Below are positions 10,818 through 54,992 of a stretch of 64,000 nucleotides of DNA, one piece after another (within the stretch, counting starts at the first letter, position 1; every line of letters begins with the position of its first letter). The stretch comes from Tenggerimyces flavus (lineage in GTDB: Bacteria > Actinomycetota > Actinomycetes > Propionibacteriales > Actinopolymorphaceae). The notes beneath the pieces were generated by a model, which saw nothing but the letters and a program-made list of their open reading frames with translations, did not search any database and had not been told where the DNA came from. The translations under genes and the position numbers were made by a program. The DNA lies in assembly GCF_016907715.1 (NCBI RefSeq), contig NZ_JAFBCM010000001.1, forward strand, positions 806,001-870,000. The letters run 5' to 3'.

Positions 10818-11396
10818 ATGCCTGCCGAGACCAGAGAGCGGATCATGGCGACGACCGCGGAGCTGTTCCGCCGACGCGGCTACAACGGGACCGGCCTGAA
10901 GCAGATCGTCGCCGAGGCGAGCGCTCCGTTCGGTTCGCTGTACCACTTCTTCCCCGGCGGCAAGGTGCAGCTGGGCGAGGAGGTCATCCGCTGGTCCGGC
11001 GGACTGTACGGGCAGCTGATCGACTCCCTCTTCGACCCGGCGCCGGACGTGGAGACCGCGATCGCGTTCGCGTTCCACAGCGCCGGCGAGACCCTCGTCG
11101 AGACCGACTACGCGGACGCCTGCCCGATCGCGACGGTGGCCCTGGAGGTCGCGAGCACGAACGAGACGTTGCGCGTCACGACGCACGAGGTCTTCGAGAG
11201 CTGGCTTGCCAACCTGCATGAGCGATTCGTCTCCGCCGGCCTGCCCGCGGAACGCGCACGGACGTTGTCGCAGACGTTGTTGATGCTGCTCGAGGGAGCG
11301 TTCATCCTCTGCCGCGCCGCGCGGACGACCGAGGCGATGGCCGCGGCCGGCGACGCAGCTGTGGCGGAGGTGCGTCGCGCGTTCGACGCCACCTAG
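10818..11396 (+). CDS. TetR family transcriptional regulator
   Basis: Protein of 192 aa. N-terminal helix-turn-helix (about residues 5-50: TRERIMATTAELFRRRGYNG, then GLKQIVAEASAPFGSLYHFF) and a ligand-binding domain of the LmrA/YxaF-like type (DACPIATVALEVAS). ATG at 10818 is preceded by GGAGAGGGG. It probably represses the divergent four-helix membrane protein and itself through the palindrome at 10742-10759. The ligand is unknown. Its TAG stop is also the left boundary of a dispersed repeat element. Confidence 0.9.
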   Translation: MPAETRERIMATTAELFRRRGYNGTGLKQIVAEASAPFGSLYHFFPGGKVQLGEEVIRWSGGLYGQLIDSLFDPAPDVETAIAFAFHSAGETLVETDYADACPIATVALEVASTNETLRVTTHEVFESWLANLHERFVSAGLPAERARTLSQTLLMLLEGAFILCRAARTTEAMAAAGDAAVAEVRRAFDAT

Positions 11397-11669
11397 CCCC
11401 GGGATCTCAGGTGTTGGTAGGCGACTTCGGCGTGTGAAAGCCGGGCGTGTCTGTCTTGCTGGGGAGACTTGGGGTGGCGACGTCTCGAGTGAGCTGAGCG
11501 GGACGGCACTCCGTGGGTGAAGCGTGTCGTGGTCGCCTTACCCGGCCAGTGGCCGCTCTACCTGGCGTCCACCCCACGTAAAGCGGCCGCTGACCATGTA
11601 AAGATCATTGGCCCAGGGGGGTGGGGGCGGACCGGTCGAACCCACCGCTGGACGAAAGATCGAGGCTAG
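11393..11669. repeat. Dispersed intergenic element, family A, copy 1
   Basis: About 277 bp bounded by CTAG on both sides (11393-11396 is the TetR stop; 11666-11669). Homologous along its length to 39863-40130 (inverted) and over its right half to 53769-53912. The block 11535-11583, containing CCAGTGGCCGCTCTACC, is identical in copy 3. Ends are imperfect inverted repeats beginning CTAGCCTCG or CTAGCCCCG. No coding capacity is evident. Resembles a MITE or REP-like element. Confidence 0.75.
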
Positions 11670-11786
11670 CGAAGCGTCTGGCAAAGATCGCCTGGCGCGC
11701 GCCACCTCGCGTCCCGCCTTGCCGCGGGGCGCCGCGCGCCATCGCGCTACGCGCGACGACCGGCGCTATTGCCAGACACGGCCTTG
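11666..11786. repeat. Dispersed intergenic element, family B, copy 1
   Basis: Terminal inverted repeats: GTCTGGCAAAGATCGCC at 11676-11692 and the complement of GTGTCTGGCAATAGCGCC at 11762-11779. It shares its left CTAG with element A. The right boundary is CTTG (CAAG on the other strand) where other copies have CTAG. Inside is one copy of the 19-bp unit that is repeated ten times in copy 3. The roughly 90-bp core present in copies 2 and 3 is missing here. Confidence 0.7.
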
Positions 11787-25471: not shown

Positions 25472-25516
25472 GTGGAGCGGGTGAAGAGAATCGAACTCTC
25501 ACTGTCAGCTTGGGAA
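25472..25516 (-). repeat. 45-bp tRNA-Gly 3'-half duplication (att-like site)
   Basis: Identical over 45 bp to 26456-26500. It covers the tRNA-Gly from the anticodon loop to CCA on the minus strand and stops at the anticodon loop, as do attachment sites of tRNA-targeting integrases. It cannot form a tRNA. The region 25517-25717 shows no further feature; 984 bp separate the two copies. Confidence 0.75.
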
Positions 25517-26455: not shown

Positions 26456-26456
26456 G

Positions 26457-26530
26457 TGGAGCGGGTGAAGAGAATCGAACTCTCACTGTCAGCTTGGGAA
26501 GCTGATGTTCTGCCATTGAACTACACCCGC
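26457..26530 (-). tRNA. tRNA-Gly (anticodon CCC)
   Basis: 74 nt including encoded CCA. Acceptor GCGGGTG pairs with CACCCGC; D-arm GTTC-AATGGCA-GAAC; anticodon stem TCAGC/GCTGA with loop TTCCCAA (CCC at 34-36); T-arm GAGAG-TTCGATT-CTCTT. All arms pair. A TAGTAT -10-like box lies upstream on the minus strand (26563-26568). Its 3' half is duplicated at 25472-25516. Confidence 0.95.
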
Positions 26531-39323: not shown

Positions 39324-39866
39324 GTGGACTCGGTGACGATCAGGACAGAGCAGCAGGGCGACGAGGCGGCGATCCGTACGGTCGTGGAGGCGGCGTTCGG
39401 CGGCCCGCACGTGGCGGATCTGGTCGACGCGCTACGGACGTCGCCGGGCTGGGTGCCAGAGCTGTCGTTCGTGGCGGTGGCGGGCGAGGACGTGGTGGGG
39501 CAGGTCCTGTTTACCCGCTGCCGGCTGGACGCGCCCGCGCGATTGGTCGACGTGCTGACGCTCAGCCCGCTGGCCGTGCATCCATCGCATCAGGGCCAGG
39601 GAGTGGCGACGCGCCTCGTACGCCACGGGCTCGCGGCGGCCGCCGAACGAGGGGTCGAGCCGCTCGTCTTCCTGGAAGGCGACCCGAGCTTCTACGCGCG
39701 GTACGACTTCGTCGCGGCCGGCTCGCTGGGCTTCCGGCGTCCCTCGCTGCGCATCCCCGAGCCGGCATTCCAGGTCTATCCGCTGCCCACGTACGAGGAC
39801 TGGATGACCGGCACGTTCGTCTACTCCGACACGTTCTGGGCCTACGACTCCGTCGGACTGCGTTAG
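39324..39866 (+). CDS. GNAT family N-acetyltransferase (YhbS-like)
   Basis: 180 aa, start GTG 39324. Acetyl-CoA binding loop AVHPSHQGQGVATRLVRHGL, then LVFLEGDPSFYARYDFVAAG typical of the YhbS group. Substrate unknown. The TAG stop is also the left boundary of repeat element A copy 2. Confidence 0.88.
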   Translation: MDSVTIRTEQQGDEAAIRTVVEAAFGGPHVADLVDALRTSPGWVPELSFVAVAGEDVVGQVLFTRCRLDAPARLVDVLTLSPLAVHPSHQGQGVATRLVRHGLAAAAERGVEPLVFLEGDPSFYARYDFVAAGSLGFRRPSLRIPEPAFQVYPLPTYEDWMTGTFVYSDTFWAYDSVGLR

Positions 39867-40130
39867 CCTCGATCTTTCATCTGGCGGTGGGTTCGACCGG
39901 TCCGCGCTGGGCCCAATGATCATGTTTACATGATCATTGGCCGCTTTACGTGGGGTGGACGCCAGGTAGAGGGGGCACTGGCCGGGTAAGGCGACCACGA
40001 CGCTTCACCTACGGAGTGCCATCCCGCTCGGATCGCTTGGACGTCGCACGCCCAGTCTCCCCAGCAGGACAGGCACTTCTGTCCTTCACAGGCCAGTTTC
40101 GCCCACCAACATCTGAGATCCCGAGGCTAG
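39863..40130. repeat. Dispersed intergenic element, family A, copy 2 (inverted)
   Basis: 268 bp from TTAG (GNAT stop) to CTAG (40127-40130). Complementary orientation to copy 1. Ends TTAGCCTCGATCTTTCATC and, on the other strand, CTAGCCTCGGGATCTCAGAT are related inverted repeats. Contains a strong palindrome AATGATCATG-TTTA-CATGATCATT (39915-39938). Confidence 0.78.
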
Positions 40131-40323
40131 GCCGTGTCTGTCAAAGATCGCCGGGCGCGCGACACCCCACAGAAGTCAGCAGAGGCCGCCTGGACGCGGT
40201 GCACCTCGTCACCCATATAACCAATATGAGTTCCTCCTGCACCACGCCCAGCCGGGCGCGGGGCGCCGCGCGTACGCGCGCTACGCGCGCTTTTGCCGAC
40301 GCTCTTTGAGAGACACGCCCTAG
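40127..40323. repeat. Dispersed intergenic element, family B, copy 2
   Basis: 197 bp between two CTAGs; the right one (40320-40323) holds the stop of the NCS1 permease. Terminal inverted repeats CTAGGCCGTGTCTGTCAAAG and, on the other strand, CTAGGGCGTGTCTCTCAAAG. An internal core of about 90 bp is shared with copy 3. Together with element A it fills the whole gap between two convergent genes. Confidence 0.78.
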
Positions 40324-41798
40324 CCCGCGGTGATCGGCTCGGTTGGACGATCCGACGCCGGCACGAACCGGGGACCGTCCGGCCCGAAGACCCCGCGGCG
40401 CTCCGGGGACACGAACAGCAGCACCAGGTAGATCACGCCGGCGAGCACCATCGTCACCACGAGGCTGAGGTCGATCCCGCCGGCGATGTTGCGGAGCGGA
40501 CCGGCGATCAGCGGCGTGTTCGCGAGGCACAGCCCCACGATCGTCGCCGGAATCCACGCCGCCAGCCCGCGCCAGTTCAGTCCGGCGGCGAACCAGTACA
40601 GCCCGCCGCGCTGGCCGCGGTTGAACACCTGCAGGTCGTCCGGGCTGTACCAACCCCGCCGCACCAGCCAGCCGATCATCATGATCACCATCCACGGCGA
40701 CGTGCAGATCACGATGAGGACGGCGAACGCGTTGATGCTCTGCACGATGTTGAACACGAAGTTGCCGATGAAGATGAACAGCACCGCGAGGGTCCCGATC
40801 AGCACCGTGGCCTGCACGCGCGACAGCCGCGGGAAGATCGAGGAGAAGTCCAGCCCCGTTCCGTACAGCGACGTCACACCGGTCGACATGCCGCCGACGA
40901 GCGCGACGATCATCAACGGAATCGCATACCACAAAGGCGAAATGGCCGCCAAGCCGCCGATGTAGTTCGCCGGGTCCGCCACCAGCGTGGCCGTCGCGAC
41001 GCCGAAAAGGAACGGCACCAGCGTCGCCAGTTGGGCAAGGAACGGCGCCGCCATCAGCTGCACCGGACGGTACGTGTCGGGGATGTAGCGGCCCCAGTCG
41101 CCGAGGAACGCGCCGAACGAGATCGGGTTCGACACGACCGTGAGGACGGCGAGCATCCAGGTCGGCCAGAACGATCCCAGCACGTACGTTCCCGTTCCAG
41201 GGAAGGAGAACGAGAACGACGACGCGTACGCCACCACGCCGAGCAGCATCATCACCGTGGCCGCGATCACCGCGACCTTGTTGACCGCGAGCATGAACTG
41301 GTAGCCGTAGATGCACACCGCGAGGACGGCGAGCGCGATCACGCCGTACGCAACCGCCCGCAGGACGTTCCCGCCGGAGATGTCAAGCAGCCGTTGCGCC
41401 GCCCCGACGATCGCGTCGCCGCTCACCCAGACCGAGATCGAGAAGAACGCGATCGCCGTCAGCAGCGAGAGGAACGAGCCGACGATCCGTCCGCGGACGC
41501 CGAAGTGGGCTCCGGACGAGACCGCGTTGTTCGTGTGGTTGCGCGGGCCGAACAGAGCCATCGGCGCCAGCACCAACCCGCCGACGACGACGCCGACCAC
41601 GGTGGCGGAGGCGGCCGCCCAGAAGCTCAGGCCGAACGCGATCGGCAGCGTGCCGAGGATGATCGTGGCGAACGTGTTGGCGCCGCCGAACGTGATGCGG
41701 AACAGGTCGAACGGCGTCGACGTCTGGTCCTCGCGCCGGATCGGCTCGATCCCGTAGCGCTCGACCTCGAGAACGGGGGGCGGGGTCGCATCGGACAT
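40320..41798 (-). CDS. NCS1 family nucleobase/cation symporter
   Basis: 492 aa with about 12 membrane helices, start ATG 41798 (MSDATPPPVLEVERYG). Typical of purine-cytosine permeases/CodB-like transporters: PFDLFRITFGGANTFATIIL, then LGTLPIAFGLSFWAA. Imports a purine, pyrimidine, allantoin or hydantoin. Lies downstream of a cyclase and a PRPP-synthase-like gene on the same strand but has its own leaderless promoter, whose TAG overlaps the cyclase stop. Confidence 0.9.
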   Translation of the reverse strand: MSDATPPPVLEVERYGIEPIRREDQTSTPFDLFRITFGGANTFATIILGTLPIAFGLSFWAAASATVVGVVVGGLVLAPMALFGPRNHTNNAVSSGAHFGVRGRIVGSFLSLLTAIAFFSISVWVSGDAIVGAAQRLLDISGGNVLRAVAYGVIALAVLAVCIYGYQFMLAVNKVAVIAATVMMLLGVVAYASSFSFSFPGTGTYVLGSFWPTWMLAVLTVVSNPISFGAFLGDWGRYIPDTYRPVQLMAAPFLAQLATLVPFLFGVATATLVADPANYIGGLAAISPLWYAIPLMIVALVGGMSTGVTSLYGTGLDFSSIFPRLSRVQATVLIGTLAVLFIFIGNFVFNIVQSINAFAVLIVICTSPWMVIMMIGWLVRRGWYSPDDLQVFNRGQRGGLYWFAAGLNWRGLAAWIPATIVGLCLANTPLIAGPLRNIAGGIDLSLVVTMVLAGVIYLVLLFVSPERRGVFGPDGPRFVPASDRPTEPITAG

Positions 41799-41805
41799 GC
41801 GCGGA

Positions 41806-41811
41806 ACCCTA
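41806..41811 (-). promoter_or_regulatory. -10 element of a leaderless promoter (NCS1 permease)
   Basis: TAGGGT on the minus strand, 7 nt before ATG 41798. Its TAG is the stop codon of the upstream cyclase gene. Confidence 0.55.
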
Positions 41812-42477
41812 GCTGTTGATGATCTCGCTGGCGATAGCGCGGATCGGTGCACCGTCGGCGCCGCCGAGCTTGATCGGCAGTAGGCTGACCAGCGGGTCGG
41901 CGAAGTCGATGTCGGCGAGGCGGGTGAGGTTCTCGGCGATGATGCCGCCGGCCCGCGAGATCGTGTGGTGCACGGCGAAGTCCGACGGCGGGCCGTCGAG
42001 CACGGTCTCGTCCGGGCTGAGCGCGTCGATGCCGACCGTACGTACCCCCAGGTCCATCAGCCGCCGCGCCGCGTCACCGTCGAGGAACGGGTGGTCGTAG
42101 TAGCGCTCGGTCCCGAAGTACTCCGACCAGCCGGTGCGCAGCAGCAGGATCCGACCGGGGCCGAGCACGGACTCGTACGGCGCGAGGTCGGCCCAGCCGA
42201 TCCGCGACCGCGGCTCCCGCCCGCTCACGTCGGCGACGACGCCGACACCGAGGAACGACGCCAGCGGCACCTCGTCGATCCGCGCTCCGTCGGAGACGAA
42301 GTGGTACGGCGCATCGACATGCGTCCCCGTATGCGACCCGATGTGCACGTGCAGCACGTTGAAGCCGTCGGCCTCGATCGTCGTCGCCGGATGCAGCGAG
42401 GGAACGGGATCGCCGGGATAGATCTGCGTCGACGAGTCGACCACCTGCGACAGGTCGACGACCTTACTAATCCGCAC
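41809..42477 (-). CDS. Cyclase family protein (putative kynurenine formamidase type)
   Basis: 222 aa from GTG 42477, 2 nt from the stop of the PRPP-synthase-like gene. The cyclase/formamidase metal motif is HIGSHTGTHVDAPYHFVSDG (H-x-G-T-H-x-D-x-P-x-H). Family members hydrolyse N-formylkynurenine or cyclic amides such as isatin; the placement before a nucleobase permease suggests a ring-opening hydrolase in nucleobase or hydantoin turnover, an inference from neighbours. Confidence 0.85.
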   Translation of the reverse strand: MRISKVVDLSQVVDSSTQIYPGDPVPSLHPATTIEADGFNVLHVHIGSHTGTHVDAPYHFVSDGARIDEVPLASFLGVGVVADVSGREPRSRIGWADLAPYESVLGPGRILLLRTGWSEYFGTERYYDHPFLDGDAARRLMDLGVRTVGIDALSPDETVLDGPPSDFAVHHTISRAGGIIAENLTRLADIDFADPLVSLLPIKLGGADGAPIRAIASEIINS

Positions 42478-52403: not shown

Positions 52404-53438
52404 ATGCCGGGTCGAATCGCCTATCTCGCAAGGGGAAACGGCTTCGGTCACGCGGCCCGGGCGTTGCCGGTCATCGACGCACTGAACCGGCTCGATCCCG
52501 CCGTCGAAGTGCGGCTCGCGTCCGCGGGTACTGGTGCGGAGTACCTGCGGATGCGCGGTCGTGGCCATGACGATCTCGGGTTCCCGGATGAGGACGATCA
52601 CGACCAGGACGCCACCGCCAAGCTGCACGCGTACCTCGCCTCCATGCCCGAGCTGGACCTGGTGGTGTGCGACGAGCTGCTCCGGGTGCCGGCGCTGTGC
52701 GATCTGATCGGCGTTCCTTGCGTGTTCGTCAGCTGCTTCCTCGGTACGGATCCTGGCCAGGATCCACGCCAGGACATCATGCTCATGGGCGCTCGGCGAA
52801 TCGTCATCCCGGACTGGCCGGAACTGCACAGCGTTCCGCCTTTCCTCGACCAGGTGGAGTTTCTGGGCCCGATCGTGCAGCCGATCGCGATGTCGCGAGC
52901 AGCCGCCCGGCAGGAACTGGGCATCGGCGACTCGTTCGTTGGCGCTGTGTCCCTGGGCGGACTGACCGCGAATCGGCTTACGTACCAGCGAGAACTGCTG
53001 CGAACCGCGCTTGCCCTGTGGGAGCAGAACGCGCCGTCCGATGGCGCGCTCTACGTCCTCTGCGGCTCGGCGGTTGCGGCGGCCGAGCTCGGGATCCGCT
53101 CGGACGACGCACGAGTCAGGTGGATCGGGTACGAGTCGAGCCAGGATCCCGATCTCTACCTGCGCTCGGCCGACGTCGTGTTCCCCTCACCCGGCTCGGC
53201 GATGCTGAAGGTAGCCCGGAGCGGGATCCCGGCGGTCGTCCTGCGCGAGCCGAACTGGCCGGTCGGCCGGCAGCACGTTCAGCACCTCGCCGGCCGTTCG
53301 TCGGTGCACGTCGGTTGGAACGGTGACGCCTGGACGACGGTGACGGACGCAGGCGTCGCGCCCACTTCCGAAGGGCTCTGGTGGGGAGAGCCCAGCGACC
53401 TCGCGAAGGTCATCCTGGCCGAGCTTCCGCGCGGCTAG
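52404..53438 (+). CDS. GT-B glycosyltransferase (MurG-like)
   Basis: 344 aa from ATG 52404 (MPGRIAYLARGNGFGHAARA). The N-terminal Gly-rich loop GNGFGHAARALPVIDAL matches MurG/GT28 enzymes; ADVVFPSPGSAMLKVARSGI and PAVVLREPNWPVGRQH fit the donor-binding half. Cytoplasmic or peripheral. Own leaderless promoter, so it is not necessarily part of the upstream operon, though glycosylation of the exported proteins is conceivable. Its TAG stop borders repeat element B copy 3. Confidence 0.83.
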   Translation: MPGRIAYLARGNGFGHAARALPVIDALNRLDPAVEVRLASAGTGAEYLRMRGRGHDDLGFPDEDDHDQDATAKLHAYLASMPELDLVVCDELLRVPALCDLIGVPCVFVSCFLGTDPGQDPRQDIMLMGARRIVIPDWPELHSVPPFLDQVEFLGPIVQPIAMSRAAARQELGIGDSFVGAVSLGGLTANRLTYQRELLRTALALWEQNAPSDGALYVLCGSAVAAAELGIRSDDARVRWIGYESSQDPDLYLRSADVVFPSPGSAMLKVARSGIPAVVLREPNWPVGRQHVQHLAGRSSVHVGWNGDAWTTVTDAGVAPTSEGLWWGEPSDLAKVILAELPRG

Positions 53439-53768
53439 AGGTCGTGTCTGGCAAAGAGCGCCGGTCATCGCGCGTAGCGCGATGGCGCGCGCGTAGCGCG
53501 ATGGCGCGCGCGTAGCGCGATGGCGCGCGCGTAGCGCGATGGCGCGCGCGTAGCGCGATGGCGCGCGCGTAGCGCGATGGCGCGCGCGTAGCGCGATGGC
53601 GCGCGCGTAGCGCGATGGCGCGCGCGTAGCGCGATGGCGCGCGCGTAGCGCGATGGCGCGCGGCGCCCCGCGCCCGTATGGGCGTGGTGCAGGAGGAATT
53701 CATGTTGGCTATATGGGTGACGATGTGCACCGCGTCCAGACGGCCTCTGCTTACTTCTGGGGGTGTCG
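53435..53768. repeat. Dispersed intergenic element, family B, copy 3
   Basis: Starts at CTAG (stop of the glycosyltransferase), then GTGTCTGGCAAAGAGCGCC (from 53444), a 19-bp tandem repeat array, and the roughly 90-bp core shared with copy 2 (about 53690-53765 inverted). The far end inverted repeat is missing; it joins directly to element A copy 3. Confidence 0.75.
53466..53660. repeat. 19-bp tandem repeat, 10 copies
   Basis: Unit GCGCGTAGCGCGATGGCGC, ten copies in phase. Each unit can form small hairpins (CGCGC-GTA-GCGCG). Copy 1 of element B has one unit and copy 2 a degenerate one, so this array expanded here and may vary between strains. Confidence 0.9.
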
Positions 53769-53912
53769 CGCCTTACCCGGCCAGTGGCCGCTCTACCTGG
53801 CGTCCACCCCACGTAAAGGGGCAAATGATCATGTAAACATGATCATTGACCCCGGGGCCGGGGCGGGGCCGGGCCGGGGCGAACCGACCGCCGGACGAAA
53901 GATCGAAGCTAG
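53769..53912. repeat. Dispersed intergenic element, family A, copy 3 (truncated)
   Basis: Matches the right half of copy 1 from GCCTTACCCGGCCAGTGG to the CTAG at 53909-53912, which is the stop of the PAC2 gene on the minus strand. Contains palindrome AATGATCATG-TAAA-CATGATCATT (53824-53847). Confidence 0.75.
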
Positions 53913-54835
53913 TCGGGGTTGTCGCCGGTGTCCTTGCGCTCGTGCTCGGCGAGGAAGCGTTCGAAGCTCTCTGCCAGCTCGTCGCCGGTCGGGAGCTCGC
54001 CGCCGGCGGCTTGGAGGAGGTCGGCGCGGTTGGACTCCTCGGCGGTGTACGCGTCGTACTGCTGCTCCAGCTGGGTCACCACCTGCGCGACCTCAGTGGA
54101 CGACGACGTCTGCTCGTCGATCTGCACGCGCGCCTGCTCGGCGGCCTCGTGCAGGTCGGAACTGGGGAGGGCGAGGCCGGTGGCCTTGGCGAGTGAGTCG
54201 ACCATGGCCGCGGCGGCGGTCGCGTACTCGGACTCGGCGAGGTAATACGGCACGTGCACGGCCAGGCCGAACGTGTCATGTCCGCGTTCGGTCAGGCGCA
54301 GCTCGAGCAGCGACCCGACGCTCGCTGGGATCAGCACCGAGTGCTTCCACGAGCGCTCGCCGGCGATGAGGTCGGTCCGGTTGCCGTGCGTCGTGAACGC
54401 CACCGGGCGGGTGTGCGGGACGGCCATCGGGATCGCGTGCAGCTCGACCGCGAGGCCGACGTTCCACGCCTCGAAGAGCTCGGTGACGCCGGACACGAAC
54501 CGGTCCCACTGCACGTCTGGCTCGCGGCCGTCGAGGATGAGGAACGGCGTCCCGTCCTGGTCCCGCACCAACACGACCTCGATCACCGGCTGCTGGTAGC
54601 CCGTGTAGTGGTCCTGGTCGAACGCGATTCGCGGCCGCCGGGACCGGTAGTCGATCAGCTGGTCGGCGTCGAAGCGCGCGATCACCCGGCTGTCCAACGT
54701 CGTCCGCAGGTGCTCGATCGCGAGCCGCGTCGAGCTCCCCGCGTCCACGAACCCGCTCAGGCCGTGCACCAGCACCGCCCCGTCGAGCTCGGGCACGTCG
54801 GGCTCGAGTTCGTACAGCTCACCCGGATCCAGCAT
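53909..54835 (-). CDS. PAC2 family protein
   Basis: 308 aa from ATG 54835, supported by GGGGGAGGATGGAGG upstream. PAC2 (proteasome assembly chaperone 2) domain: ELDGAVLVHGLSGFVDAGSS, then RVIARFDADQLIDYRSRRPR. An acidic, helical C-terminal tail (AEESNRADLLQAAGGELPTG onward) is typical of actinobacterial members. Function in bacteria is unsettled; actinomycetes have a proteasome, but a chaperone role is not shown. The TAG stop lies in the CTAG boundary of element A. Confidence 0.87.
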   Translation of the reverse strand: MLDPGELYELEPDVPELDGAVLVHGLSGFVDAGSSTRLAIEHLRTTLDSRVIARFDADQLIDYRSRRPRIAFDQDHYTGYQQPVIEVVLVRDQDGTPFLILDGREPDVQWDRFVSGVTELFEAWNVGLAVELHAIPMAVPHTRPVAFTTHGNRTDLIAGERSWKHSVLIPASVGSLLELRLTERGHDTFGLAVHVPYYLAESEYATAAAAMVDSLAKATGLALPSSDLHEAAEQARVQIDEQTSSSTEVAQVVTQLEQQYDAYTAEESNRADLLQAAGGELPTGDELAESFERFLAEHERKDTGDNPD

Positions 54836-54865
54836 TCCTCCATCCTCCCCCTTCGCGGACATCGC

Positions 54866-54893
54866 GTCGCACAAGAGTCGGCGGCGCCGTTGC
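54866..54893. repeat. 28-bp repeat, family C, copy 2
   Basis: Matches 11786-11813 with one mismatch. It is on its own here, upstream of the PAC2 start. Confidence 0.55.
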
Positions 54894-54992
54894 ATTGGGA
54901 AGACCGGTCCGACTGGTGAAACTCATCGGCCCTGGCGCGGCGTGACGTGGCTCACATCCGACGCGGGCATCTGACGTGATCCACTTGCACAA

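Follow-up and report, generated by a model that had tools for sequence, protein, structure and literature searches.

Why should the gap between two genes that face each other be filled, from the stop codon of one to the stop codon of the other, by repeated elements? The question is raised by a locus of Tenggerimyces flavus within a stretch of 64,000 nucleotides (the window), itself part of a single-contig chromosome of 8.52 Mb. Direct reading of the sequence between a GNAT acetyltransferase gene and a convergent NCS1-type permease gene agrees with what the initial annotation had claimed, namely that the gap consists, stop to stop, of two elements, A and B, which have the middle CTAG in common. 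We consider it very probable that A and B are MITEs, each from its own family and unrelated to the other, that the parents of both target YTAR (mostly CTAG), and that insertion at a shared stop codon is harmless, which would be why the copies are kept.

The gap and related copies

The gap is laid out as follows (window positions).

39324..39866, plus strand: GNAT acetyltransferase gene (open reading frame, Pfam, sequence); its stop TAG, 39864-39866, lies inside the TTAG left of A
39863..39866: TTAG (a YTAR), left target tetramer of A (sequence)
39867..40126, plus strand: element A, putative 260-bp IS1380-family MITE, terminal repeats CCTCGATCTTTCATC / CATCTGAGATCCCGAGG
39915..39993, plus strand: conserved A core, AATGATCATGTTTACATGATCATT with alternating TTTACGTGG-type motifs
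40127..40130: CTAG common to A and B (sequence)
40130..40320, plus strand: element B, putative 191-bp MITE, IS5/IS427-type terminal repeats GGCCGTGTCTGTCAAAGATCGCC / GCTCTTTGAGAGACACGCCC
40320..40323: right CTAG, whose CTA is the permease stop on the minus strand and whose first base comes from B (sequence)
40320..41852, minus strand: NCS1-type permease gene, Transp_cyt_pur (open reading frame, Pfam)

Related arrangements occur at two other places in the window. The stretch at 11.4-11.8 kb had been said to start at a TAG stop, and indeed it starts at a CTAG that ends a gene, followed by a reversed A and a remnant of B. The gap at 53.4-53.9 kb had been thought to be built like the gap between the GNAT and permease genes; it does have a CTAG stop at either edge, but what fills it is a B-A chimera and not two elements.

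10818-11396: TetR-type gene ending in CTAG at the reversed A copy (Pfam)
11393..11669, minus strand: reversed A copy, from the CTAG stop at 11393-11396 through the A body (11397-11665) to a CTAG at 11666-11669
11670..11783: B remnant adjoining the reversed A copy
53435..53912: B-A chimera, CTAG stop to CTAG stop
53909-54895, minus strand: convergent PAC2-family gene at the chimera (Pfam)

The chimera opens with the left end of a B, continues with the B hairpin in expanded tandem repetition and closes with a reversed A left end, the expansion consisting of about 10 units of the 19-bp repeat CGCGCGTAGCGCGATGGCG at about 53469-53677. The A-B array itself is found again at chromosome positions 1,026,225-1,026,670, with A 98% and B 85% identical, as expected if A is a recent arrival next to a B of greater age, or if it was converted.

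A search of the whole chromosome with both elements, as had been suggested, places A and B in multi-copy repeat families. We found at least 40 copies of A in the own genome, at 80-100% identity (the best 40 of 281 candidates were scored), and at least 40 of B (the best 40 of 141 candidates). These copy numbers are far beyond chance, and the true numbers probably exceed the 40 scored for each. A 28-base motif from A's middle part matches 149 times in the own genome at three or fewer mismatches, its reversed control not once; the exact 39-base core gave no match in a scan of genome contigs.

The window also holds identical 45-bp direct repeats at 25472-25516 and 26456-26500, 984 bp apart, the second of which runs into a tRNA gene on the minus strand (26460-26530), an arrangement that resembles the duplication of an integration site. 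Rfam, searched over the whole window for a described RNA family, gave one tRNA only.

Two families, their probable parents and targets

Element A is too short for a transposase gene and present in many copies, as expected of a MITE. Its first bases (query 2-23) are identical in two relatives of another genus, where A's start and A's right end stand about 1.6 kb apart with a transposase between them, and its right 131 bp are 72-73% identical to full-length ISs. The own genome likewise has a transposon with A's terminal repeats, of the kind that the initial annotation had proposed to look for: one intact parent-type copy, at chromosome about 5,598,592-5,600,348, with an open 472-aa gene and the ends CTAG-CCTCGAG...GATCGAGG-CTAG. 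The left CTAG of this copy holds the stop of the upstream gene, a B copy sits at its right CTAG, and after that B comes the CTAG stop of the facing gene, making two convergent CTAG stops. The NCBIfam model NF033539 (IS1380) scores above its cut-off for P0001, P0002 and the transposase gene of the own genome (284 bits). Moreover, 212 plasmid records, mostly from Streptomyces and Rhodococcus, match relatives of the A parent, and the close ones are annotated as IS1380 family.

The flanks point to the target. Left flanks of 30 A copies are CTAG in 15, TTAG in 5 and CTAA in 1, with 3 left unassigned, and right flanks are CTAG in 22; where both flanks could be read, 15 of 27 copies have the same YTAR on either side, which is CTAG/CTAG in 13 (the count that had been suggested as a check), TTAG/TTAG in one and CTAA/CTAA in one. 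The picture of CTAG-bounded elements needs one correction: not every A flank is CTAG, TTAG and CTAA being used too, and B would fit a TA. With terminal repeats common to a full-length IS, target duplications and many copies, the suspicion of a MITE family is borne out, and judged by sequence A appears to be a MITE of an IS1380-family transposon with a 4-bp duplication. Nothing in the IS1380 matches corresponds to its core, which is more conserved than the rest of A (95.5% mean column identity, vs 88.3% to the left and 91.6% to the right). The core is present also in repeat family C (L083:6542-6683, L085:7523-7659 and others), which has an A-like core about 80% alike and a different right end, CAGGTCCTAG; family C, too, is often at CTAG stops, and its parent IS was not found.

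The same target is seen at IS1380 ends in other actinobacteria. An end motif that ignores the flanks was used for this comparison, and 41 of 77 public loci were counted, 36 partial-match loci being left out. A YTAR stands at 51 of the 64 candidate ends (25 CTAG, 15 TTAG, 7 CTAA and 4 TTAA), against a background rate of 0.11% of positions. By hand count, the two ends of 13 loci have an identical YTAR, two of these loci being the copies from Actinopolymorpha rutila that are also used below. When ends were paired purely on their inverted-repeat score, chance pairs dominated (68 loci, none with equal flanks).

Element B has ends of another kind. Among 394 genomes of the class, 11, the own one included, have its end TAGGGCGTGTCTCTCAAA at no more than one mismatch. 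A transposon with B's terminal repeats, also on the list of proposed checks, exists in other actinobacteria: in genome G133 (loci L141 and L157) B ends bound an IS5-family element of 942 bp whose two frames overlap, the first of them scoring 114 bits with NF033580 (cut-off 110). Its two frames suggest that it belongs to the IS427 group. Elements of about 160 bp bounded by B ends, MITEs of other genera, are found in G034, G068, G122, G177, G274 and G411. In the own genome NF033580 (IS5_3) has nine matches, none above cut-off, so that no IS5-type parent above this limit is left and B may be stranded there. In a hand count, from which six pairs of over 800 bp were dropped as spurious, only 10 of 30 B copies retain TA on both sides, and 23 of 30 retain it on at least one. 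A TA duplication inside C-TA-G would suit these flanks better than one of the whole CTAG, although the flanks are worn and the small number of copies with TA on both sides speaks against it.

Other repeats and ISs of the own genome deserve mention beside these two. Five near-identical ISs of 1046 bp (L183-L187) have ends CTAGATGATCGATTCC at YTAR; one of them (L183) is at a CACTAG stop and another (L185) adjoins an A-type end. A further IS with ends GGATGYGCTGAT (L189-L191) is flanked by CTAA/CTAA, CTAG/CTAG and CTAG/CTAG, and L190 is at a CCCTAG stop. A 3.2-kb unit in three near-identical copies (L078-L080) has two transposase-like genes, one 27% identical to IS1380, and is bounded by ATGAAGGTGCCCTTCAT palindromes of an intergenic family, E. 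Another palindrome family, D (GTGATCATGTACGTGATCATGAAGG...), has a copy at L094:17349-17423 (plus strand) and 24 further copies in the chromosome sample described below. In 7 of these 25 copies (8 edges) the TGA stop of a gene lies in the element's own terminal GTGA, so that the element itself supplies the stop; the copy at chromosome 6295500-6295574 gives a stop to both of two convergent genes.

Target tetramers at stop codons

How could such a target bring transposons to the ends of genes? For the host chromosome we used a sample of three runs, 1.264 Mb in all, with 1099 genes called by codon statistics and 52 element clusters. CTAG is scarce in it, with 496 occurrences against the 812 that its trinucleotides predict. 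Of the 496, 192 coincide exactly with stop codons; 224 genes were called as ending in CTAG, and TAG is a very common stop here (415 of the 1099 genes, with 597 TGA and 87 TAA). Both halves of an earlier suggestion are thus supported, that CTAG is rare and concentrated at stops and that an element targeting it would land at gene ends, although the target is more exactly YTAR. Elements adjoin 27 of 223 CTAG-ending genes vs 1 of 596 TGA-ending ones (p=3.5e-15), with 11 of 190 for other TAG stops and 3 of 87 for TAA. Element edges that face the 3' end of a gene are at the stop in 42 of 76 cases, a zone that covers 3.7% of intergenic positions, and edges that face a 5' end are as close in 3 of 27. 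Per CTAG, occupancy is 26/192 at stops vs 14/193 at other intergenic positions (p=0.046), and 4/106 in called genes. Since stops are only modestly preferred per CTAG, the bias towards them comes mostly from the supply of CTAG and the loss of copies inside genes, and any preference beyond supply is mild at most.

Convergent genes stand out in the same sample. An overlap of exactly 4 bp, in which one tetramer is both stops, is found in 43 of 197 convergent pairs (31 CTAG, 8 CTAA and 4 TTAG). Clusters lie at 27 of the 197 convergent junctions vs 23 of 899 others (p=3.7e-9), and among 26 convergent gaps with an element both edges are at stops in 8 and one edge in 13.

These observations can be brought together in a simple mechanism. 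A keeps the ends of an IS1380-family IS, which duplicates 4 bp of target, and B has IS5/IS427-type ends, starting with G and finishing with C, which would fit a 2-bp TA duplication inside CTAG. Because CTAG is palindromic it can give a TAG stop on either strand, and convergent genes here often have one CTAG as both stops. Insertion into such a shared stop would separate the two genes and restore TAG on each side. With TAG rebuilt on both sides no protein would change and the copy would be retained; every insertion would also create one more CTAG, so that further elements could land alongside, giving an A-CTAG-B array. The family ends, the parent IS, the target duplications of A, the copy numbers, the association with stops and one empty site of a parent-type IS are observed; that A and B themselves arrived by transposition we infer from them, and the neutrality of the site would account for their survival.

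One empty site agrees with the mechanism. The initial annotation had called for empty sites in relatives, and a single-CTAG junction is seen for a parent-type IS1380 copy, not for a copy of A or B: genome G004 has a single CTAG where A. rutila (G006, locus L068) has CTAG-IS-CTAG, and the flanks align gapless once the IS and one CTAG are removed. In G004 the right gene keeps its stop and the left gene ends earlier, its stop lying about 38 bp further in, so that the G004 site is not a shared stop. At the window locus no empty site for A or B was found, relatives being without the flanking gene pair and no genome of the same genus being among those listed; for locus L148, in the genus of G411, none was found either, no relative retaining both flanks. 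The stop-to-stop layout itself occurs elsewhere, at L068 (A. rutila), L148 (G411) and L196 (a Nocardioidaceae bin). In hand counts, B-like loci of other genomes show 15 edges that look towards the 3' end of a gene, 10 of them at the stop (three own-genome loci are omitted, as is L155, the same MITE as L147), and IS1380 relatives outside the own genome have 6 of 20 edges at a stop, given a gene end facing within 300 bp. The latter number indicates that the stop rule is weaker outside this genome.

This explanation would account in simple terms for the harmless crowding of some transposons between facing genes, the target being a two-way stop that is copied on insertion, and with it comes a testable rule for where such elements occur and are tolerated.

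Alternatives and known systems

Could the elements instead owe their retention to a role in ending transcription from both sides between convergent genes, transposition having merely supplied them? We think this unlikely, though several observations speak for it. A and B fold far better than shuffles (z of -5.1 and -5.3), the arms of B covary, with two-sided changes in 8 of 21 pairs, a number reached by none of 500 shuffles, and clusters are commoner at convergent junctions, as counted above. However, matched terminal repeats are needed for transposition anyway, and private symmetrical arm changes can come from arm-to-arm correction. A GC hairpin followed by a T run was found at no site in 39700-40500, the share of CTAG stops with an element is 17/103 for convergent genes and 9/89 for tandem ones, which is no significant difference (p=0.21), and 25 of the 52 clusters lie outside convergent gaps. 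The terminator role that had been offered as one option may still apply to A and B. More generally, MITE insertion at shared stops carries a warning, that a hairpin between convergent genes need not be an evolved terminator.

It is most improbable that A and B are host palindromes of the REP/REPIN type, mobilised by a RAYT, that follow stop codons and merely look like MITEs: the genome does have further intergenic palindrome families (D, E and F), some after stops, but A and B come with terminal repeats that match, duplicated targets and full-length ISs that have the same ends. We give even less credence to copies made by an IS481-type transposon with an NCTAGN target, as the initial annotation had considered, for although TnRErm46 has the same CTAG target and stop restoration (PMC6794481, as excerpted), the ISs with A and B ends carry IS1380 and IS5 transposases (the parents being of the NF033539 and NF033580 types), both ends differ from the TnRErm46 inverted repeat as quoted, and an IS481 origin of A is already contradicted.

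We keep to the reading of A and B as MITEs of YTAR-targeting parents, and compare it with what has been published. TnRErm46, an IS481-type element of Rhodococcus equi, targets CTAG. The duplicated tetramer supplies the TAG that ends the genes it hits, parB among them, and their function is left uninterrupted (PMC6794481, in excerpt). The restoration of CTAG stops is thus already published, and the principle known for one element. TnRErm46 is like A and B in its target, and unlike them in its IS481 transposase, its nature as a resistance transposon, its 6-bp NCTAGN repeats and its lack of a MITE swarm, and the excerpted text does not mention shared convergent stops. To the extent of our searches, three things are new: IS1380 and IS5-type elements behave in this way too, whole families of MITEs occupy gaps between convergent genes, and shared YTAR stops are offered as the explanation; a link between shared convergent stops and transposon targets was not found in the open-licence literature searched, which is no proof of absence.

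The IS1380 family (NF033539) has the same transposase as the A parent and its relatives, the plasmid relatives being so named. For IS1247 a 5-bp duplication is listed (PMC3281130, in the part available), vs the 4 bp of YTAR here; the same partial source lists IS427-group elements with 2-bp repeats. In the IS5 family and its IS427 group, B's ends match the 942-bp element of G133, a parent above cut-off being absent from the own genome. At its insertions the IS5 of Escherichia coli makes a second copy of a Py-T-A-Pu tetramer, which is CTAG at 15 of the 24 sites listed (PMC5493358), so that its target consensus is YTAR, as here, and that paper, as far as its excerpt goes, treats gene activation and inactivation, not stop codons. 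We would speculate, with some reserve, that several unrelated transposase families (IS1380, IS5 and, to judge by TnRErm46, IS481) settled on YTAR because it is just the set of tetramers that end genes on both strands, that convergent genes with one common CTAG thereby offer them a landing pad where no harm is done, and that MITEs there have reshaped gene ends of this genome. The tetramers that can end two genes on opposite strands are CTAA, TTAA, CTAG and TTAG, that is, YTAR, according to a 2007 study (PMC2174442) whose 4-bp convergent overlaps are the same tetramer set as here, with no link to transposons in the portion seen. Our explanation thus joins two published facts: IS5 targets Py-T-A-Pu, and convergent genes can overlap by a YTAR.
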